Shown here in pieces: positions 2,938 to 16,547 of a DNA stretch of 16,918 nucleotides. The stretch is taken from the NCBI GenBank assembly GCA_021802745.1, contig JAJZRK010000050.1, positions 1-16,918 of the forward strand. The letters run 5' to 3'. This stretch comes from a bacterium. Its GTDB lineage: Bacteria > Gemmatimonadota > Gemmatimonadetes > Gemmatimonadales > Gemmatimonadaceae. A model generated the notes under the pieces. That model was not told the origin of the DNA. It was given only the letters and a program-made list of their open reading frames with translations, and did not search any database. The position numbers and the translations under genes are program-made. The number at the start of each line of letters is the position of its first letter. The first letter of the stretch is position 1.

Positions 2938-3669
2938 ATGACGGGAAGCAGGAAGTGGCTGGCGATTCTAGGCGTCGCAGCGATAGCAGTCGCGTCGACG
3001 CTCATGTCCGCCTACGCCGGCAATTATCAGACCGCCGCCGTCGCGGCGGGCACCACCGAAACCGCGACGCAGAAAGCCAATCGCGAGGCCCTCGGCAAGG
3101 CCAAGCCGGGCCCGTGGGGCTACAGCGGCGCGTCGGGCTACACCAACTACCTGGGGCAGGGCACCGGCCGCTCGCCGGTCCAGCCCGTCATCTTTCCGCA
3201 CCCGGTGCACGTGAACACGCTCAAGATGAACTGCGTGTTCTGCCACTTCGCGGCAAGCAAGTCGCCCGACCCGGGCCTTCCCGCCGTGGCGACGTGCATG
3301 GGCTGTCACGCCATCACCGCCATCGCCCAGCCGGAAGTGAAGAAGATCGCCGAGGCGTTCAACAAGCAGCAGCCCATTCCGTGGGTGCGCGTGCACAAGG
3401 TGCCGGAGTACGTGCACTTCCCGCACGTGCGCCACGTCTACGCCGGCATCACGTGCCAGACGTGCCATGGCCAGGTGCAGAACATGGCGCAGGTCTTCCA
3501 GTACTCGTCGCTCAACATGGGCTGGTGCGTCTCCTGCCATGTGAACGGCTACTCGCGCGCCGAGGGCATGCGCGCGGCCGGGTACCAGCCCGACTCCGCC
3601 GCGCTCGCCGATGAACGCAAGGGCGTGCGCAAGGTCGCGTCCTACGATTGCGCCAACTGCCACTACTAG
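2938..3669 (+). CDS. actA: Alternative Complex III subunit ActA, pentaheme cytochrome c
   Basis: This 243-residue cytochrome c subunit of quinol:cytochrome c oxidoreductase (Alternative Complex III) sits on the periplasmic side and passes electrons out of the complex. It has an N-terminal signal/anchor segment (residues ~7-26) and five CXXCH heme c sites at 99-103, 120-124, 173-177, 197-201 and 238-242. Extra histidines (H88, H91, H153, H160, H163, H166) lie between the sites and are candidate axial ligands. The last heme site ends one residue before the stop (CANCHY), so no tail follows it. ATG 2938 is preferred over a GTG at 2884 because it gives a clean n-region (MTGSRKW) before the hydrophobic core. 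It is the first gene of the act operon; actB follows after 10 nt. Heme ligation should depend on the ccm genes downstream. Confidence 0.93.
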   Translation: MTGSRKWLAILGVAAIAVASTLMSAYAGNYQTAAVAAGTTETATQKANREALGKAKPGPWGYSGASGYTNYLGQGTGRSPVQPVIFPHPVHVNTLKMNCVFCHFAASKSPDPGLPAVATCMGCHAITAIAQPEVKKIAEAFNKQQPIPWVRVHKVPEYVHFPHVRHVYAGITCQTCHGQVQNMAQVFQYSSLNMGWCVSCHVNGYSRAEGMRAAGYQPDSAALADERKGVRKVASYDCANCHY

Positions 3670-3679
3670 AGACCGACGC

Positions 3680-6600
3680 ATGACGATCCCCGTGGAAACG
3701 ACCAACGGCGTCAAGCGCCGCGATTTCCTGAAGGTTCTCGGCGTCACCGGCGCCGCGACGACCATGGTGGGCTGCAGCACTGACCAGGTCGAGAAACTCA
3801 TCCCCTATGTCACCTCGCCCGACCACACGGTGCCGGGTGTCTCCAACTACTACGCCAGCACCTGCCGCGAGTGCGCGGCCGGGTGCGGCATCATCGTCGA
3901 GACGCGCGACGGCCGCGCCCTCAAGATCGAGGGCAACCCCGATCACCCGGTGAACCGCGGCGCTATCTGCGCGCGCGGGCAGGCGGCGCTGCAGGGACTC
4001 TACAACCCCGACCGCTTCCGCGGCCCGATGATGCGGCAGAACGGCCAGTTCGTGCCGATCACGTGGAACCAGGCGATTGACGCGCTGCAGAAGGGCGTGG
4101 ACACGGCGATGAAGAGCGGCAAGGCCAGGAACGCCGTCTTCATCAACCAGCACGAGCAGGGGCTGCTGCACACGTTCCTCGACGAATGGCTGGCGCTGCG
4201 CGGCATGCCGCCGCACATCAGCTACGACGCCGAGGCGCCCTTCGCCACCATCGCCGCCAACAAGGCGGTGTACGGCGTGTCGTGGCCCAGGCTCGACTTT
4301 GGCGCCGCCAAGGTGATTGTCTCGTTCGCCGCCGACTTCCTCGACGGCTGGGGACTGCCGGTGCCGCAGCAGCTCGATTTCGCCGACGCGCGCGGCAAGG
4401 TGGACGACGCGCCGCGTCTCATCTACATCGGGCCGCGCCGGCCGCTCACCGGCCTCAACGCCGACCAGTGGATTGCCGCCAAGCCCGGCACCGCCGGCGC
4501 GATTGCCAAGATGCTCGCCGGCAAGATGTCGCCGGCCGCCGCCGCTGCGGCGACCGACACGCCCGTGAAGGTGCTCGCCGCGCTGCAGAAGGAAGTCGCC
4601 GCCGCCAAGCCGTCGCTCATGATTGCCGGCGGATCGGGGCCGAACGCGCTCGACCTGAACACGGAAGTCGCCAATCTCAACAAGGCGCTCGGCAACGTGG
4701 GCGTCACGGTGAAACCCGCCGAAGCGTACGGCGCGTGGGAAGGGGTGGTGCCGCCGGCGGTGCTCAACGATGTGGTGGCAGCGATGGAGGCGGGTGACGT
4801 GCCCGCGCTCTTCGTGCGCGGCGCCGACCCGGTGTACAGCACGCCGGCCGGGCTGGGGTTCGCCGCCGCCACGAAGAAGGTGCCGTTCAAGGTGTCGTTC
4901 TCGTCGGTGCCGAATGAGACCACCGTGCTCTGCGACCTGATCCTTCCCGACCACCACGCGCTCGAGAGCTGGGGCATCGCCGAGCCGGTGAAGGGGACGC
5001 TCAGCCTGCAGCAGCCGACGATGGATCCCGTGTTCAACACGCGGTCAACCGCCGACGTGCTGCTGGCGTCGCTCAAGCCGATGCCATGCTTCGCCTGCCC
5101 GGAGAACCCCGCCGAGGAGAAGCAGCACGCCACCGACGTGTCCAAGTTCCCGCCCGATTATCGTGGCGTGGTGGCCAGGCACATTGGCGGCAATGGGCAA
5201 CTCCAGAACGCACTGCCCAAGGCGCTGCTCCCCGGCATGCTCCCCAAGCGCGTGGCCCCGGTGGCGAAGATCATGAAGCCGGCCATCGCCGGCGAGCAGA
5301 ATGGCGACTACTACCTCGCCACGTATTCCAATCTGTTGATGGGCGACGGCCGCGGCGCCAACAAGCCCTGGCTGCAGGAACTCCCCGACCCGGTCACCAA
5401 GGTCTGCTGGCAGACCGTGGTCGAGATGCATCCCGAGACCGCCACGAAGCTCGGCGTCGAGCGCGGCGATCACGTGACGGTGAAGACCGCCGCTGGCGCG
5501 ATCACGGCCCCTGCCTTCCTGTATATCGGCGTCCGGCCCGACACCATTGCGGTGATGGTCGGGCGCGGGCAGCAGGCGTCGGGGCGCTACGCGACCAACA
5601 CGGGGCGCAATGCGTGGGGCCTGCTCCCGGCATCGAACGACCAGGCCGGCGGCTACCAACTGGTGGGTGTGCGCTGCACCGTGACGAAGGCCGACGGGAA
5701 CTCGATGATCGTCACGACCGAGGGCTCCGGACGCCAGCACGGGCGGGGCATCGCGCGGGCGGCGACGCTGGAGGAGCTGCTCAAGGGCGAGGAGCATGCC
5801 GAGCACGCCTTCCCCGGCCAGGCTTCCACGGAGTTTCTCCCCGGTCTGCGCGCCCCGGTCGCCAATGACGCGCAAGGCGAGCTGGGCGATCCGAAGTCGG
5901 CGCAGATGGGCGAGTACGATCCCAACCACCCGAGCGGCCGCGCCAGGCGCCGCTGGGCGATGACGATTGACCTGGCCAAGTGCACCGGGTGCTCGGCCTG
6001 CGTCACCGCCTGCTACGCCGAGAACAACATCCCGACGGTCGGCGCCGAGTGGCAGGGTCCCATCCTGTATCCGGACCGCAAGTTCCCGGGCGCCAACATC
6101 ACCCGCTCGCGCGAGATGGCGTGGCTGCGCCTCGAGCGCTACTACGAGATTGATCGCGAGTACAAGGACGTGGCGTGGAATCCGGAGCATCACCCCGAGG
6201 CGCGGGTGATCCCGATGATGTGCCAGCACTGCGGCAACGCGCCGTGCGAGCCCGTCTGCCCGGTGTACGCGACGTACCACTCGCCGGACGGCCTGAACGT
6301 GCAGGTCTACAACCGCTGCGTGGGCACGCGCTACTGCTCCAACAACTGCCCGTACAAGGTGCGCTACTTCAACTGGTTCGGGTACGGCGAAGTGGACCGC
6401 GCGCAGTATGCGTTCCCGGAACCGCTCAACTGGCAGCTCAATCCCGACGTGACGGTGCGCGGGAAGGGCGTGATGGAGAAGTGCTCGTTCTGCGTGCAGC
6501 GCATCCGCGACGCGGAAACCCTGGCCAAGGTGCAGAACCGCGAGATCACCCCCGACGAGTTCACGACGGCGTGCGCACAGGCCTGCCCGTCGCGCGCCAT

Positions 6601-8698: not shown

Positions 8699-9410
8699 GG
8701 CGCTCCTCCGTCGCGCGGCGTTCGCCGCGCTTCCGCTCCTGCTCGGCGCATGCAGCGGCTTCATCACCGACTTCAAGCAGCAGCCGTCGGTGGGCACGTG
8801 GCAGGTCTTCAACCCCGACTCGGCCGAGACCAAGGGCTTCCGCGGCAATCCCGCGGGCTCGGTGTCCACGAACGGCACCATGATGCCGGCGTGGGTGGTG
8901 TCGTACGGGCAGCTGCCGAGCGTCATTGACTCGATGTCCACGCTGGCCAACCCCGTGGCGCCCGACACCGCGTCGGTGCACCGCGGCCGCGTCTATTTCC
9001 AGGTCAACTGTTCGCCGTGCCACGGGCCGGCGGGGCAGGGCAACGGCACGGCCACCACGCTCGGCATGGTGCCCATGCCGCTCGTCTCGGATCGCGTGAA
9101 GAACTTCACGGATGGCTACATCTGGGGGATGATCCGCAACGGGCGCGGCCTGATGCCGTCGTACAATCGCATCGAGGAAATGGACCGCTGGGACGTCGTG
9201 AACTACATCCGCGCACTGCAGGGCAAGCTGCCCGGCATCACGCCCGACACGACGCCGGCCGGCCTGCCGGGCGAGACGGGGGACAAGCTCCCCGGCTTCA
9301 CGCAGATCGGCCCCAACCGCAACGCGGCCTTCGCCCGTCCGATCGTGACGGCGATGCCCAAGGCCGCCCCGCCGGCGGCGCCGGCCAAGACGGAGGGCCA
9401 CGAACAATGA
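8688..9410 (+). CDS. actE: Alternative Complex III subunit ActE, monoheme c-type cytochrome lipoprotein
   Basis: This is a 240-residue periplasmic cytochrome c. A lipoprotein signal runs from the N-terminus to C22 (LLGAC-S), so the protein should be anchored by lipid. A single heme c site C108-S-P-C111-H112 lies in the cytochrome c fold, with M156 (GRGLMPSY) the likely sixth ligand. The tail after residue ~200 is Pro/Ala-rich. It probably carries electrons from ActA towards the terminal oxidase or a soluble carrier. The GTG start at 8688 lies inside actD and is supported by the strong GGAGGTG about 6 nt upstream and by the lipobox position. Its TGA overlaps the actF ATG (ATGA). Confidence 0.93.
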   Translation: MNAKALLRRAAFAALPLLLGACSGFITDFKQQPSVGTWQVFNPDSAETKGFRGNPAGSVSTNGTMMPAWVVSYGQLPSVIDSMSTLANPVAPDTASVHRGRVYFQVNCSPCHGPAGQGNGTATTLGMVPMPLVSDRVKNFTDGYIWGMIRNGRGLMPSYNRIEEMDRWDVVNYIRALQGKLPGITPDTTPAGLPGETGDKLPGFTQIGPNRNAAFARPIVTAMPKAAPPAAPAKTEGHEQ

Positions 9411-10747
9411 GCGCCCACGACTCTCCCGCCCCGACGCGCGACCGCGTGCTGGCGGCGATCGACAAGCCGATTCCGGCCGTCATCAAGCAGGCGTTCCTCG
9501 CGATGTTCGTGCTCGGGTTCGCCGTCTTCGCGTACGGCGCCCTGCGCGGGAACGGCCGCGCGTGGCAGGCCTTCCACGTGAACTGGCTCTTCTTCACGAC
9601 CATCGCGTCGGCAGGCGTCATGTTCGTCGCCGTGCAGCGCATCACCACCGCGCGCTGGTCGCGCTCGGTGATCCGCCTGCTGGAAGGCTTCGTCGCGTTT
9701 CTGCCCTTTGCGTTCGTGGCCCTGATGCTGTCGGTGTTCGTGGGGGCCAGGCACATCTATCCATGGTGGGACCTGCCGGGAACCGGCCAGCTCATCCACG
9801 AAAAGGACCTCTACCTCGGGCACGGCTTCTTCTGGGCGCGCGCGGTGGGGGTGTTTGGCGCGCTGGTAGCGCTGCAGCTCTGGTATGTGTGGACGTCGGT
9901 GCGCCTCGACGTCGGCGTGAGCCCCGAGCGCGGCGCGTCGTGGGCGGCGGGACTGCGCGCGGCGATGCGCCGCGGGTTCGGCGACGAACGGCGCGAGCTG
10001 CACACGACGCACAGCCGCCAGGGGTGGATGTCCGTCGTGATGGCCCTGCTGTTCGGGTTCGGCTGGGTGGTGCTGGCGTGGGACCATTCCATGTCGCTCG
10101 ACATCCACTTCTTCAGCACGATGTACGGCTGGCAGGTCTTCATGGGCGGCTGGGTGGTGGCGCTGATGATCTTCAGCGGCCTCGTGCGCTGGTTCAACCA
10201 GCACCTCGACGCGCCCGACCTCATCACCGAAAGGCAGTACCACGACATCGGCAAGCTCTGCTTCGCGTTCACCGCGTTCTGGGGCTACCTGACCTTCTCG
10301 CAGTACCTCGTGATCTGGTACGGCAACATGCCCGAGGAGACGCACTTCTTCACGCTGCGGCTGACCGGGGCGTGGAAGGCGGTCACCGTGTCGGTGGCGA
10401 TGCTCGTGTTCACGCTGCCGTTCTTCGGCCTGTTGAGCGTGAAGGCCAAGTTGTGGACGCCGACGATGATGTTCTTCGCCGCGAGCTCGTTCATTGGGCT
10501 GTGGCTGGCGCGCTACACCGAGGTGTATCCCTCGATCTACGGGCCGCGCGCGCTGGGTACCCTGCCGCTCGGCAAGTGGGAGTTGGCGCTCTTCGTCGGC
10601 TTCCTCGGCGCGTTCGGCTGGTTCTACGCGCAGTTCATGGACGGCTTCCCCAAGATGCGCGTCTTCCTGATGACGTCGGAGTATCGGGATGAGGTGCAGG
10701 TGCCGTGCGATCCGGAGACGATGGAGCCGTTGCCGGCGCATGAGTAG
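9407..10747 (+). CDS. actF: Alternative Complex III subunit ActF, NrfD-like integral membrane subunit
   Basis: This is a 446-residue multi-spanning membrane protein (about ten hydrophobic segments), a paralogue of ActC in the NrfD-like ACIII family. Recognisable parts are ARHIYPWWDLP, LAWDHSMSLDIHFFSTMYGW and FSQYLVIWYGNMPEETHFF, typical of ActF. In ACIII it packs opposite ActC and is proposed to help form a proton path. The ATG at 9407 overlaps the actE stop and has GGAGGG upstream. The stop codon TAG at 10745-10747 is itself the first three bases of the downstream heptamer array, so the 3' end of the gene is fused to a repeat. No actG or oxidase genes follow in this window. Confidence 0.94.
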   Translation: MSAHDSPAPTRDRVLAAIDKPIPAVIKQAFLAMFVLGFAVFAYGALRGNGRAWQAFHVNWLFFTTIASAGVMFVAVQRITTARWSRSVIRLLEGFVAFLPFAFVALMLSVFVGARHIYPWWDLPGTGQLIHEKDLYLGHGFFWARAVGVFGALVALQLWYVWTSVRLDVGVSPERGASWAAGLRAAMRRGFGDERRELHTTHSRQGWMSVVMALLFGFGWVVLAWDHSMSLDIHFFSTMYGWQVFMGGWVVALMIFSGLVRWFNQHLDAPDLITERQYHDIGKLCFAFTAFWGYLTFSQYLVIWYGNMPEETHFFTLRLTGAWKAVTVSVAMLVFTLPFFGLLSVKAKLWTPTMMFFAASSFIGLWLARYTEVYPSIYGPRALGTLPLGKWELALFVGFLGAFGWFYAQFMDGFPKMRVFLMTSEYRDEVQVPCDPETMEPLPAHE

Positions 10748-10863
10748 ACGGTAGACGGTGGACGGTGGACGGTGGACGGTAGACGGTGGACGGTGGACGG
10801 TAGACGGTGGACGGTAGACGGTGGACGGTGGACGGTAGACGGTAGACGGTGGACGGTGGATGG
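10745..10863 (+). repeat. Heptamer array 1: 17 units of TRGACGG
   Basis: This is an uninterrupted tandem array with a 7-bp period. Sixteen units are exactly TAGACGG or TGGACGG, and the last is TGGATGG. Only the second base varies among the first 16 units; the order is A A G G G A G G A G A G G A A G. The first unit supplies the TAG stop of actF, and the last ends 7 nt before the stop codon of the minus-strand four-helix-bundle gene. There are no spacers, so it is not CRISPR. Confidence 0.97.
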
Positions 10864-10870
10864 CGGCGGG

Positions 10871-11245
10871 CTAGGGGTGACTCCTGGTCCGCCGCGCTGC
10901 GTTGGCGCGTACGGCAGCGAGGAGACGTACGAGGCGCGGAGCGAGGTTGCGAAGCTGTGCCGTCAGGTCCGCGTGGGTTTGCGGGGTGAGGGCGCCGGTG
11001 TCGCGGGCGAACTCCACGTGGCACTCAGATTCCTTCGCGGAAGCGAGCGCAATCGCGATATAGCGCGCAAAAGTCGCCTGCGATTCGCTGCCGGCCCCCT
11101 CCGCGAGGTTCGCGGCGATTGACCGCACGGCGCGCAGCAACTGCCACCGCAGGTCTCGGTCGCTCATTGCGGCTGTCGCCTGCCGGCAAGCCTCGGCGAG
11201 CGTCCTCGCTTGCGCGTAGACCTCGAGTTTCTCGAGTGGATGCAT
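10871..11245 (-). CDS. Four-helix-bundle protein (S23 / 23S rRNA-intervening-sequence / Avd-like family)
   Basis: This 124-residue protein has the pattern of the TIGR02436/PF05635 four-helix-bundle family: N-terminal 'PLEKLEVYAQARTLAEACRQ', central LLRAVRSIAANLAEGAGSES (consensus 'RaaxSIxxNIaEGxgr') and FARYIAIALASAKESECHVEFARD (consensus 'SxxElexhl'). Members are encoded in 23S rRNA intervening sequences, and the same fold is used by Avd, the accessory protein of diversity-generating retroelements. Avd binds RNA together with the reverse transcriptase, but no reverse transcriptase is present here. Length matches the family (~115-125). The gene runs against act and ccm and lies between two heptamer arrays in opposite orientation, one 7 nt from its stop. 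The start ATG at 11245 has no clear Shine-Dalgarno. The biochemical role is unknown; RNA binding is only suggested by relatives. Confidence 0.85.
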   Translation of the reverse strand: MHPLEKLEVYAQARTLAEACRQATAAMSDRDLRWQLLRAVRSIAANLAEGAGSESQATFARYIAIALASAKESECHVEFARDTGALTPQTHADLTAQLRNLAPRLVRLLAAVRANAARRTRSHP

Positions 11246-11342
11246 GCGCGCAAATTGACGGAAGGCGTGAAGACTTCATCACCATTTGCCTGCATCCAGT
11301 GTGAAACGTGCGCCGTTTAGCCGGAAGTACTGCGTGAGGCCA

Positions 11343-11412
11343 CCGTCTACCGTCCACCGTCCACCGTCCACCGTCCACCGTCCACCGTCTACCGTCTACC
11401 GTCTACCGTCTG
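11343..11412 (-). repeat. Heptamer array 2: 10 units, inverted relative to array 1
   Basis: On the + strand the units are CCGTCYA, the reverse complement of TRGACGG. Nine are perfect (order T C C C C C T T T at the variable base) and a tenth is CCGTCTG. It lies 97 nt upstream of the four-helix-bundle start and 36 nt before the tRNA. With array 1 it forms inverted terminal arrays around that gene. Confidence 0.96.
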
Positions 11413-11448
11413 GAAGCCACCCCTCCCAGTCCTTAGATTCCACACCTC

Positions 11449-11521
11449 GGGGCGTTAGCTCAGTTGGGAGAGCACCGGCTTTGCAAGCCGGGGGTCATCG
11501 GTTCGAGCCCGATACGCTCCA
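11449..11521 (+). tRNA. tRNA-Ala (anticodon UGC)
   Basis: This 73-nt tRNA has a full cloverleaf. Acceptor arm GGGGCGT/ACGCTCC carries the G3-U70 wobble pair, the main alanine identity element, and a discriminator A. The D arm is GCTC...GAGC, the anticodon arm is CCGGC-TTTGCAA-GCCGG with anticodon TGC at 11482-11484, and the T loop is GTTCGAG. The 3' CCA is not encoded (TGA follows), so it must be added after transcription. It stands alone, with no rRNA genes nearby, between heptamer arrays 2 and 3. Confidence 0.97.
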
Positions 11522-11532
11522 TGAACTGCTCG

Positions 11533-11556
11533 AGCGGCCGGCACATGCCGGCCGCT
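11533..11556 (+). terminator. Probable terminator hairpin after tRNA-Ala
   Basis: A perfect 10-bp GC-rich stem (AGCGGCCGGC / GCCGGCCGCT) with a 4-nt ACAT loop starts 12 nt after the tRNA. The tail is only weakly T-rich (TGTG). It may serve as a 3' processing or termination signal for the tRNA transcript. Confidence 0.55.
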
Positions 11557-11627
11557 TGTGCGTCGGTGGCTGAGAGGTGGTTCTCTCGCGGTGTGCGTGG
11601 ATCGCGATCTCCCGCGTCCGTTGCACA

Positions 11628-11704
11628 CCGTCTATCGCCTACCGTCTGTCGTCTACCGTCCACCGTCTACCGTCTACCGTCTACCGTCTACCGTCTACCG
11701 TCTC
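11628..11704 (-). repeat. Heptamer array 3: 11 units, same orientation as array 2
   Basis: These are eleven contiguous heptamers on the pattern CCGTCYA (+ strand). The downstream half has five identical CCGTCTA units followed by CCGTCTC. The upstream half is degraded (TCGCCTA, CCGTCTG, TCGTCTA). The array ends 106 nt before the ccmA start and about 27 nt before a possible -35 region. Confidence 0.95.
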
Positions 11705-11730
11705 TATCCAACCCCTTATCCCACAACGGT

Positions 11731-11761
11731 TTGTCGTGTAGGGGAAAGTCGTACATTTTAT
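11731..11761 (+). promoter_or_regulatory. Possible promoter of the ccm operon
   Basis: TTGTCG (11731-11736) followed by an AT-rich TACATTTTAT (11752-11761) is the only promoter-like sequence in the ~105 nt between array 3 and ccmA. The spacer is 15 nt to TACATT, or 19 nt to TTTTAT, so the fit is imperfect. The AT richness in a GC-rich genome is the main support. Confidence 0.3.
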
Positions 11762-11810
11762 CGGCTTCCTCTGGCTGGAAAAGAAGGGTGCAATTGCCCT
11801 GATTTCTTGC

Positions 11811-14107: not shown

Positions 14108-14556
14108 CGACGAAACGGACCAAGTGGGGCGCGCTGGCCGCGGTTGGCGTGCTCGTGATTGCCTTCGGCTGGCTCATTTACGGCGGCCTCGACAGCAACG
14201 TGGTGTACTTCCTCACGCCCAAGGAGCTGCTGGCGAAGGGGGTCGAGGGCTATGACAAGCCGGTGCGGCTGGGCGGGCAGGTGAAGCCCGGCTCGGTGGT
14301 GTGGGACGAGAAGGCGCTCGACCTGCGCTTCGCCGTCACCGACGGCACGGGCGAGATTGCCGTGCACTCGAAGGGGGCGCCGCCGACGATGTTCAAGGAC
14401 GGCCAGGGGGTCGTGGTGGAGGGGCGCTACGGCAAGGACGGCGTCTTCGTCAGCACGAGCCTGATGGTGAAGCACTCCAACGAGTACAAGGCGCCGACCA
14501 AGGGCGAGCGGCCGTCGGAGATGTACAAGTCCCTGATGAAGAGCACGGGTACATGA
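14104..14556 (+). CDS. ccmE: Periplasmic heme chaperone CcmE
   Basis: This 150-residue chaperone binds heme covalently and carries it from CcmC to CcmF. It has one N-terminal membrane anchor (residues ~9-27) followed by an OB-fold domain with PVRLGGQVKPGSV, FAVTDGTGEIAVHSKGAPP and GQGVVVEGRY. The heme-binding motif is H124-S-N-E-Y128, matching the conserved HxxxY of the histidine-type CcmE; the cysteine variant is not used here. Its start overlaps ccmD by 4 nt and its stop overlaps ccmF by 4 nt. Confidence 0.96.
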   Translation: MTTKRTKWGALAAVGVLVIAFGWLIYGGLDSNVVYFLTPKELLAKGVEGYDKPVRLGGQVKPGSVVWDEKALDLRFAVTDGTGEIAVHSKGAPPTMFKDGQGVVVEGRYGKDGVFVSTSLMVKHSNEYKAPTKGERPSEMYKSLMKSTGT

Positions 14557-16547
14557 CCCGCCTGCTCGCCTTCAACGCCATCGTCGTCGCGCTCGCCGTC
14601 TCCCTGCTTGGCGCGACGTTCGGCCCGATCGCCGTGCGGCGCGGCCGCCGCGACTGGCTGATGTACCTGTACGCCGCGGTGTACACCAACTTCGTGCTGG
14701 TGACGGTGTCGGCGCTCGCCCTGGTCTACGGGCTGGTGTCGCACGACTTCAGCATCTCGTACGTCGCGCAGGTGGGCAGCCGCGCGACGCCGACGTTCTA
14801 CACGATCATCTCCCTGTGGGGCGCCCTCGAGGGCTCCATCGTGTTCTGGGCGTGGGTGCTCGGCATGTACGCGGCCGCGGTGGTCTGGTTCAACCGCAAG
14901 CGCGAAGGCAACCTGGTGCCCTACGCCGCGGTCACCCTGCTCGTGGTGGCGGTCTTCTTCCATATCCTGCTCGTCGGGCCGGCCAATCCGTTCCAGCCCG
15001 TCTTCCCGGTGCCGTTCGACGGGCCGGGGCCGAACCCGCTGCTGCAGAACCACATCCTGATGGGGGTGCATCCACCGCTCCTCTATCTCGGGTACGTCGG
15101 ACTCACCGTGCCGTTCGCCTTCGCGGTGGGCGCCATGCTCTCGGGCGAAGTGGCCGGCGACGACTGGATTCGCCTGACGCGCCGCTGGACGCTCACGGCG
15201 TGGGCCTTCCTCACGGCCGCGATCATCGCCGGCATGTGGTGGTCCTACGAAGTGCTCGGCTGGGGCGGCTACTGGGCCTGGGATCCGGTCGAGAACGCCT
15301 CGTTCATCCCGTGGCTTACCGTGACCGCGTACCTGCACTCGGTGATGGTGCAGGAGCGCCGCGGCATGCTGAAGCTGTGGAACCTGAACCTGATGGTCGG
15401 CACCTTCGTGCTGACGATCCTCGGCACGTTCCTGACGCGCTCGGGCATCATCTCGTCAGTGCACGCGTTCACGCAGGGCACGATCGGCTACTACTTCCTC
15501 GGCTTCATCGCGTTCGTGCTGGTGAGCGCGCTCTTCATGGTGGCCGGCAACAGCGACAAGCTGGCGTCGGAGGGGCGGCTCGACGCGCCGCTGTCGCGCG
15601 AGACGGTCTTCCTGCTGCAGAACCTGCTCTTCACGACGTTCATGTTCACGGTGCTCATCGGCACGCTCTTCCCGCTTGTCGCCGAAGCCGCGCGCGGCGT
15701 GAAGGTGAGCGTGGGGACGCCGTTCTTCAACCGGATGAGCGTCCCGCTGATGGTCGCGCTCCTCTTCCTCATGGGCGTCGGTCCGGCGCTGCCGTGGAAG
15801 AAGGGGGCAGGGCCCGAACTGAAGGGGCGGCTGCTTCCGGGCGTCGTCCTCGGCGCGGCGTTGGCCATCGTGGCGCTCGTGGCGGGGGCGCGCAATGTCT
15901 ACTCGGTGCTCGCGTTCGCGTTCGCGGGCTTTGCGCTCGCCGTCAATGCCGGCGAGTTCGTGCGGGGTGCCAACGCCCGCGTGAAGGCGCAGGGCGAGCC
16001 GTGGGTGGTGGCGCTCTCGCGCCTCATCAGCGGCAACCGCCGTCGCTACGGCGGCTACATCGCGCACATCGGCGTCGTGCTGGTCGCGCTCGGCGTCGCC
16101 GCCTCCTCGACGTTCCGCACGGAGCAGGAGGCGACGCTCAAGCCGGGCGAGACGGTGACGGTCGCCGGCCACACGGTGCGGTTCAAGAATGCGTGGGGCA
16201 AGCAGGAACCGCAGCGCGAGGTGATTGGCGCGACGATGGAGCTGATGGACGGCGCGCGCGTGGTCGGCACCGCCGAACCGCGCATGAACTACTATCCGAC
16301 GTCGCAGCAGCCCGTGCCGACGCCCGACGTGCGCAGCATGCTGTCGGGCGACCTCTACTTCAACCTGATGGCGTTCAAGCAGGATGGGTCGAACGTCACG
16401 GTCAAGGTCATCTGGGAGCCGCTCATTCCCTGGATCTGGTTTGGCGGCCTCGTGCTCTGCATCGGCGCCATCGTCGGCATGCTGCCGCAGCGCCAGCGGG
16501 TCGCCGCGGCGGTGCGGTCGCCGGCGCTCACGGAGGGCCAGTCGTGA
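14553..16547 (+). CDS. ccmF: Cytochrome c heme lyase subunit CcmF
   Basis: This 664-residue polytopic protein catalyses, with CcmH/I, the thioether ligation of heme to CXXCH apocytochromes. The WWD domain (WGGYWAWDPVENASF, residues 237-251) is intact. Four histidines match the functional ones of the E. coli protein: H173 (HPPLLY) and H304 (SSVHAF) flanking the WWD domain, and H262 and H505 (GGYIAHIGV) as likely ligands of the transmembrane heme b. A periplasmic loop domain (residues ~520-620) precedes the last helix. It starts at ATG 14553 within the ccmE stop, and its TGA overlaps the GTG start of ccmG. Confidence 0.97.
   Translation: MTRLLAFNAIVVALAVSLLGATFGPIAVRRGRRDWLMYLYAAVYTNFVLVTVSALALVYGLVSHDFSISYVAQVGSRATPTFYTIISLWGALEGSIVFWAWVLGMYAAAVVWFNRKREGNLVPYAAVTLLVVAVFFHILLVGPANPFQPVFPVPFDGPGPNPLLQNHILMGVHPPLLYLGYVGLTVPFAFAVGAMLSGEVAGDDWIRLTRRWTLTAWAFLTAAIIAGMWWSYEVLGWGGYWAWDPVENASFIPWLTVTAYLHSVMVQERRGMLKLWNLNLMVGTFVLTILGTFLTRSGIISSVHAFTQGTIGYYFLGFIAFVLVSALFMVAGNSDKLASEGRLDAPLSRETVFLLQNLLFTTFMFTVLIGTLFPLVAEAARGVKVSVGTPFFNRMSVPLMVALLFLMGVGPALPWKKGAGPELKGRLLPGVVLGAALAIVALVAGARNVYSVLAFAFAGFALAVNAGEFVRGANARVKAQGEPWVVALSRLISGNRRRYGGYIAHIGVVLVALGVAASSTFRTEQEATLKPGETVTVAGHTVRFKNAWGKQEPQREVIGATMELMDGARVVGTAEPRMNYYPTSQQPVPTPDVRSMLSGDLYFNLMAFKQDGSNVTVKVIWEPLIPWIWFGGLVLCIGAIVGMLPQRQRVAAAVRSPALTEGQS

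Follow-up and report, generated by a model that had tools for sequence, protein, structure and literature searches.

In the systems formed by doublets (REPINs) of repetitive extragenic palindromic (REP) sequences and REP-associated tyrosine transposases (RAYTs), one gene reportedly lies between copies of a repeat that also occurs elsewhere in the genome, both as singlets and as inverted doublets, and the type of repeat matches the gene. The REPIN doublets and REP singlets are derivatives of the RAYT. Other bacterial repeats are arrays of seven-base units, as are the short tandemly repeated repetitive (STRR) sequences of cyanobacteria. A gene of the S23/intervening sequence protein (IVP) family, enclosed by inverted ends, occurs in the intervening sequences (IVSs) of 23S rRNA genes in Leptospira, Coxiella, and other bacteria. 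In the available portion of one report, an IVS with an S23/IVP gene is termed a selfish element, the family has a solved structure and no known function, and its member XCC0516 is a pentameric ring (PMC4990558). Heptamer arrays of GGGAATC in Xanthomonas (PMC4692102) and of GGACCGG in Geobacter (PMC2700814) are likewise described in the portions available. On where the heptamer arrays of cyanobacteria, xanthomonads, Geobacter, and others come from, the literature surveyed shows no agreement. The subject of this report is a cassette of about 670 bp (10745-11412) in a 16,918-nucleotide stretch of DNA from a member of the Gemmatimonadaceae (contig JAJZRK010000050.1; hereafter the window). Its best reading is that it is organized like a REPIN-RAYT system, with a sole gene that encodes a putative array-binding protein of the S23/IVP family.

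The left boundary of the cassette touches a host gene that we take, following an earlier reader, to be actF, for a subunit of alternative complex III (open reading frame [ORF] 9407-10747, plus strand). The TAG stop codon of actF supplies the opening three bases of the first heptamer of the left array (10745-10863, plus strand), which consists of 17 TRGACGG-type units, namely 16 TRGACGG and one TGGATGG, and, read along the IVP gene, forms the 3' arm of the cassette. That gene (10871-11245, minus strand) encodes a 124-residue four-helix-bundle protein. A GC-rich, terminator-like hairpin recognized by eye (10862-10895) lies between arm and gene and overlaps the last IVP codons, and a similar hairpin is present at the related locus L203. 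The 5' arm (about 11340-11412, minus strand) contains ten heptamers, nine TRGACGG and one CAGACGG, is inverted relative to the left array, and pairs with it in arm alignments. Both arrays were read from the sequence, by exact reading and with Tandem Repeats Finder (TRF). To the right lie a tRNA-Ala(TGC) gene (11449-11521, plus strand), found by ARAGORN and the Rfam tRNA model, and a third, gene-free TRGACGG array (11627-11703, minus strand), with 11 units by TRF and the orientation of the second array.

A preliminary description made from the sequence had reported 17 heptamers, a minus-strand S23/IVP gene, and ten inverted heptamers between actF and a tRNA gene, and this layout is upheld by the sequence itself, by TRF, and by family matches of the protein (PF05635, E 1.4e-20; TIGR02436, E 1.6e-19). 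It had also supposed that a transcript of the cassette could form a long stem, which agrees with the predicted fold of 10745-11412 on the minus strand (-362.7 kcal/mol, vs -272.2 +/- 7.3 for 20 shuffles; z -12.4). An AlphaFold2 model of the IVP (pLDDT 93.1) is matched in Foldseek by XCC0516 (2gsc; TMq 0.86, E 1e-5) and by BT_0352 (2rld; TMq 0.75, E 4e-4). Unlike the 23S rRNA IVSs, the cassette lies outside rRNA (an Rfam scan of 10600-11800 gave the tRNA as its sole match), its ends are short-unit tandem arrays, and copies of its array are dispersed in trans. Matching dispersed repeats with inverted doublets, as in REPIN-RAYT systems, are seen in relatives of the window; unlike in those systems, the flanked position is held by a PF05635 gene rather than a Y1 transposase gene, and the repeat is a head-to-tail heptamer array rather than a single palindrome.

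Inverted arrays recur around other genes of the family. An alignment of 21 of 45 relatives of the window's IVP, used to scan species genomes, gave ten loci; eight carry a Gemmatimonadetes, Gemmatimonadota, or Gemmatimonas title, one is titled only "bacterium" (L002), and one is titled Bacteroidetes. In each of the first nine, TRF places a seven-base array beside the gene, on one side or both, and the units vary by genome (TRGACGG, AGACGGG, AGATGGT, AGATGGC, and others). PF05635 matches were found in 64 of 121 sampled genomes from the phylum of G003, a member of the window's clade, with at most 14 matches per genome, and in 116 of 148 from the phylum of the Bacteroidetes genome G010. A profile built from our own loci, with one entry per ORF, gave 131 genes, from which three with short flanks and nine duplicates were removed; of the remaining 119, three (L012, L021, L031) are from G010 and 116 from Gemmatimonadota. 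When the 400 bp upstream of each gene is aligned to the reverse complement of the 400 bp downstream, the arm score is at least 40 in 88 of the 119 (median 56). This score is reached by none of 119 in the next 400 bp outward, by nine of 119 in direct orientation, and by 23 of 4000 mismatched pairs. By these alignments, inverted short-unit arrays accompany PF05635 genes much more often than chance would give, which supports the preliminary description.

Weaker arms of the same kind are seen among the 30 best-scoring loci of Bacteroidota, where the median score is 31, vs 19 for both distal and mismatched windows. Fifteen plasmid loci (13 cyanobacterial, one Gemmatirosa, one Azospirillum) were chosen from 28 records, and 11 of these reach 40, vs eight of 210 mismatched pairs and a distal maximum of 36. 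At some loci the array takes in the stop codon and the final codons of the gene, and the downstream window was here therefore opened 45 bp inside it; opened at the gene's end, the window gives eight of 15. Units of 7-13 bp make up the arms, the two arms of one cassette tend to have the same unit, and in many cassettes the inverted ends are long and irregular instead of being clean arrays. The cyanobacterial plasmid units (GGGAGTA, GGGAACA, AGGGTGT, CAGGTGA, TCAGGAG) look similar to the STRRs described for cyanobacteria. Searches of plasmids with the window's IVP (tblastn) and of a phage collection with XCC0516 gave no match. Viral contigs searched with XCC0516 yielded 11 loci, of which four (L164, L165, L169, L171) have own-arm scores of at least 40 and another four, with identical low scores, have no arms. 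A GGGAATC pattern occurs in one viral contig, and no PF05635 match was found in the 4.2 kb of it that was searched.

Two further observations concern the arms themselves. A second PF05635 class has arms of 9-11-bp units (L013-L019, L022); six of its loci share common flanks in six genomes, and L017 and L022 lie at other sites. A purine-rich 5' arm was considered as a general feature on the basis of 77 of 88 cassettes, mainly of the Gemmatimonadota set, vs 41 of 88 distal sequences, and was dropped because just six of 11 Bacteroidota cassettes have it.

Evidence for mobility comes from seven occupied plasmid sites that were compared with similar gene-free DNA. At site 1, L183 and L190 are occupied and L187-L189 are empty, with flanks about 97% identical; the empty sequence is AAAAAGTAATTAAC, and GTAAT stands on both sides when the site is occupied. 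At site 4, L184 is occupied and L228 is empty, the flanks are about 92% identical, and TTCTA is repeated. The stop codon of the upstream gene overlaps the duplication at both of these sites, and the 5-bp duplication suggests a staggered cut. A decayed cassette copy is present at site 1 in L191, a gene-free array pair at site 2 in L194, and cassettes that are 78-81% alike occupy different plasmid sites.

Plasmid cassettes also interrupt operons and gene pairs, as in the orders cas10-IVP-cmr3 and cas6-IVP-cas4 (twice), among nrd genes, and among conjugation genes. L177, L178, and L180 are PF05635 cassettes within cas operons of cyanobacterial plasmids. In the available portion of another report, PF05635 is the most common family in aggregated neighborhood data for diversity-generating retroelements (DGRs; PMC10053308). 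Insertion beside cas genes may contribute to the reported co-occurrence of PF05635 with CRISPR and DGR loci, which offers another reason why these genes are found beside CRISPR-cas: such positions may just be insertion sites. In both strains of Flavobacterium columnare covered by the available portion of a further report (PMC5524665), a gene for a four helix bundle, listed there as phage sequence, lies between the guanylate kinase gene and a nicotinate mononucleotide adenylyltransferase gene and looks like another insertion.

A further line of evidence is the dispersal of arrays that carry the unit of the resident cassette. Hits to three 21-base patterns derived from cassette arms were tallied in 12 genomes, with both strands summed and overlapping hits allowed, so that the counts are not numbers of arrays. 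The TRGAYGG pattern gave 377 in G382 and 215 in G001 (0-27 in the ten others), the GGCRGAT pattern 178 in G009, 66 in G074, and 36 in G008 (0-13 in nine others), and the GGGAGAC pattern 37 in G002 (0-8 in 11 others). The top genomes for each pattern are those whose actF cassette carries that unit (six genomes, three units). Backward patterns used as a control also match, for example 188 times in G382 for GGCRGAT, since reading a pattern backward can produce a sister unit. Arrays of at least three units were then counted in 20 stretches each from G001 and G382, which cover part of either genome: there are 41 in 399 kb of G001, where the head-to-tail heptamers are dispersed in the manner of heptamer STRRs, and 16 in 387 kb of G382. 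With 60 permuted motifs the median was 0 in either genome and the maxima were 31 (G001) and 14 (G382), never reaching the real counts; these motifs replaced a backward-motif control (four in G001, 14 in G382), which was poor in that rotated TAGACGG arrays also match the motif read backward. TRGACGG-type units account for 33 of the 36 period-7 TRF arrays of G001, whose period-10 arrays match the unit of its second PF05635 cassette (L019) and whose period-11 arrays match the class of L019 in sister genomes. Within 200 bp, 18 of the 41 arrays in G001 and six of the 16 in G382 have a neighbor of two or more units in the opposite orientation, and all such pairs are convergent (divergent, 0 and 0). 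The preliminary description had held that arrays scattered without association to four-helix-bundle genes would count against it; the arrays are scattered, yet their unit matches that of the cassette.

The history of the actF site was traced by searching for ActF in 249 sampled genomes of the phylum of G001. A match was found in 238, although the weaker ones (about 30-40% identity) are not necessarily ActF, and the 30 best loci were examined. All eight genomes with ActF 83-89% identical to that of the window have a PF05635 gene, in the order actF-cassette-tRNA-Ala; TRF detected the arrays at the five plus-strand loci, and those of the remaining three are the ones found at L004, L006, and L007 in the scan of species genomes. 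None of the 22 genomes with ActF 60-70% identical has a PF05635 gene within 1.5 kb, and tRNA-Ala is present in 20 of them, no more than 300 bp from the end of the ActF match in 15. With the gene in all of the inner and none of the outer genomes, the insertion seems to go back to the ancestor of one clade and to have persisted since. The IVP is under purifying selection, as judged from pN/pS values of 0.24-0.40 in five comparisons, and evolves faster than ActF (50-79% vs 79-94% identity over 36 pairs). From these sequence comparisons, the cassette seems to have stayed for long at the actF site of this lineage, under purifying selection, rather than to have jumped there recently. The proposal of a mobile or repeat-propagating element in the preliminary description thus draws support from filled and empty sites and from dispersed arrays of the cassette's own unit, and does not extend to recent movement at this site. 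The same description had counted conservation of the locus across distant relatives as an argument against it, and the cassette is conserved within the clade, whereas the site holds no PF05635 gene in the 22 more distant genomes. As a separate observation, the outgroup genome G082 (L212) has opposite-orientation, IVP-less heptamers in the gap between actF and tRNA-Ala; its arrays lie on either side of the tRNA gene (2833-2938 and 3612-3686), and one IVP-less array pair there flanks a terminator-like hairpin.

Within the clade, the two arms resemble each other more than they resemble the arms of orthologues. In 12 orthologous actF-site cassettes, the arm score with the own partner has a median of 64, vs 35 between orthologues, and the own-partner mean was matched by none of 20,000 permutations. 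Alignments of these arms indicate that both arms at the actF site changed together. Template switching is established as a means of arm homogenization, and it is central to a passive explanation, in which slippage grows the arrays, template switching at the quasi-palindrome keeps the arms complementary, and the IVP gene hitchhikes in a fragile site. Array copy number indeed differs between relatives, as this explanation would have it. It leaves unexplained, however, why no signal is seen in the flanks beyond 400 bp, why PF05635 genes of several phyla have this layout (only PF05635 flanks were scored), and why many distant arrays carry the unit of the cassette. A purely passive origin is judged quite improbable.

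We instead consider it on balance probable that the cassette is a mobile element with an array-specific IVP. This would be a small selfish element, kin to those in some 23S rRNA genes, in which one IVP gene lies inside the stem and the inverted tandem arrays act as terminal inverted repeats. The IVP probably recognizes its own cassette's array in single-stranded form, as RNA or DNA, and would promote the annealing or copying of arrays. Such annealing or copying could spread whole cassettes, IVP-less convergent pairs, and solo arrays, the latter two being derivatives of the cassette, and would keep the units alike. Binding of the array by the IVP and its part in array spread are inferred, and the protein is best called a putative array-binding factor. 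That arms and dispersed arrays have changed jointly is suggestive of annealing or template switching between arrays, a task to which a pentameric ring like that of XCC0516 might be suited. Annealing as the specific mode of action is nevertheless doubtful. Cutting and joining would come from host replication and repair or from some transposase.

The preliminary description had supposed that machinery is supplied in trans, and two candidate sources are poorly represented in the genomes concerned. The reverse transcriptase family RVT_1 was detected in just one of 11 clade genomes, one of six others rich in PF05635, and two of ten without PF05635 (four of 27 in total), although these assemblies may be incomplete and a missing match is not proof of absence. 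By reading, no reverse transcriptase is among the large ORFs of the window, which were read without a family scan. A retroelement resembling a DGR, with reverse transcriptase in trans and the IVP as an accessory similar to Avd, would account for the fold, since the IVP model matches Avd (4dwl; TMq 0.73, E only 0.055) and the DGR ribonucleoprotein (8ube and 8ub7; TMq about 0.71-0.73, E up to 0.15, with 8ub7 at 0.73 and E 0.15). These matches are weak by E-value, no sequence match of Avd to the IVP was found, and reverse transcriptase went undetected in ten of the 11 clade genomes; we regard such a retroelement as very improbable. A REP/RAYT system, in which a Y1 tyrosine transposase moves the arrays and the IVP is incidental, is also considered highly unlikely. 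It would share the layout of doublets and singlets around one gene, yet Y1_Tnp (PF01797) was detected in seven of 27 genomes and went undetected in nine of the 11 in the clade, where one of the two matches bears a stop and the other is a contig-end fragment. The genomes with the most arrays (G001, G382, G009) gave no reverse transcriptase match, and G382 and G009 gave no Y1 transposase match either. The supposition of machinery in trans thus finds no backing in either family.

The strongest rival is a regulatory explanation. It takes the IVP as an RNA-binding regulator, the arrays in untranslated regions as its regulon, and the arms as a device for autoregulation, with protein and unit co-evolving like regulator and operator. 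Long residence at one site under purifying selection speaks for such a system, as do matching units in trans, and 14 of the 41 arrays in G001 lie outside a crude gene (ORF) proxy, vs about 12% expected. In the portions of the literature available, heptamer arrays are proposed as regulatory elements in Geobacter metallireducens (PMC2700814), and a regulatory role is discussed for the repeats of Beggiatoaceae (PMC4679880). Regulation does not readily account for empty sites with 5-bp duplications, for insertions inside the cas, nrd, and conjugation operons of plasmids, or for pairing that is convergent only. The solo array beyond tRNA-Ala is likewise present in some relatives (the window, G009, G003, G004) and missing in others (G074, G006, G001, G382, G007). 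A regulatory function is considered unlikely as the main explanation.

Several results weigh against a mobile cassette with an array-specific protein. The element is confined to one site within the clade, and no cutting or joining enzyme was found. Transposons and miniature inverted-repeat transposable elements have terminal inverted repeats and target site duplications; inverted ends are general among the PF05635 cassettes, and a clean 5-bp target duplication is present at only two of the seven plasmid sites; sites 2, 3, 5, 6, and 7 are too diverged for one to be read, and none is readable in the window. The own partner is the single best scorer in just four of the 12 actF-site cassettes, and L007 has no recognizable partner arm. 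Arm scores fall below 36 in 23 of the 119 PF05635 genes, and the Bacteroidota arms are weak, with nine of 30 reaching 36; 27 of 870 mismatched Bacteroidota pairs also do so, perhaps because some loci have one unit in common. Furthermore, the identities of IVP and ActF are weakly correlated (Spearman 0.39; Mantel p 0.13, not significant). The preliminary description had asked whether arrays and PF05635 genes co-occur across genomes. By unit they do so within the clade, whereas in a small sample of the phylum, with one stretch of at most 20 kb per genome, arrays of a period not divisible by three number two in 328 kb from 20 PF05635-bearing genomes (clade member G003 among them) vs three in 301 kb from 20 without. 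The PF05635-bearing sample is not rich in arrays, and massive dispersal is therefore shown for the window's clade only.

If the cassette is nonetheless mobile, it may help explain the long-known heptamer repeats of bacteria, and linking heptamer arrays to the S23/IVP family gives each a testable role. Among the matches listed from open-licence PubMed Central, outside which subscription journals and preprints lie, no paper links S23/IVP genes to short tandem arrays. The available portion of a report on the xanthomonad heptamer GGGAATC describes 70 convergent pairs in Xcc, proposes no linked gene, and does not mention S23, intervening, or four helix (PMC4692102). For the TAACTGA repeats of Beggiatoaceae, the available portion of one study suggests that the mobile element could be a protein that binds the repeat (PMC4679880). 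A tentative and somewhat unlikely generalization is that PF05635 proteins confer specificity on a widespread class of selfish DNA that has no transposase, each protein reading the short unit of its own cassette and seeding or rewriting arrays in the genome by annealing or templated copying, with unit changes shared by arms and arrays. The 23S rRNA IVSs, the cyanobacterial STRRs, and the Xanthomonas GGGAATC arrays would be members or products of such a class.

Long PF05635 proteins akin to XCC0516 extend into a heptamer unit of the xanthomonad kind. XCC0516, behind a translated GGGAATC lead, was used as a query, and among the best 120 of 7861 matching proteins, 13 have at least 135 residues. 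In 12 of these 13, by eye, the C-terminal stretch reads as a translated inverted heptamer, which is GATTCCC-like (SDSPFPIPDSR) in nine and GAATCCC-like (IPNPESPIPNP) in three. The three GAATCCC-like proteins also start with the matching sister unit (RDSGFGIRDSG and similar). The N-termini of these matches are biased because the query bore the translated lead, and the C-terminal stretches were absent from the query.

Two minor observations were made elsewhere in the window. ARAGORN reports a tRNA-Ile (AAT) at 15914-15988, which is probably a false call; it lies within a long ORF (14301-16547) that resembles cytochrome c biogenesis genes. TRF finds a 13-bp array (CAATCGCAATCCG) at 1934-1984; its unit is similar to those in the arms of another class of PF05635 cassettes (L033, L036, L038) and in an array of G001 (L241:967-1025). 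Judged from this resemblance between units, the array is a solo copy of a second element type.

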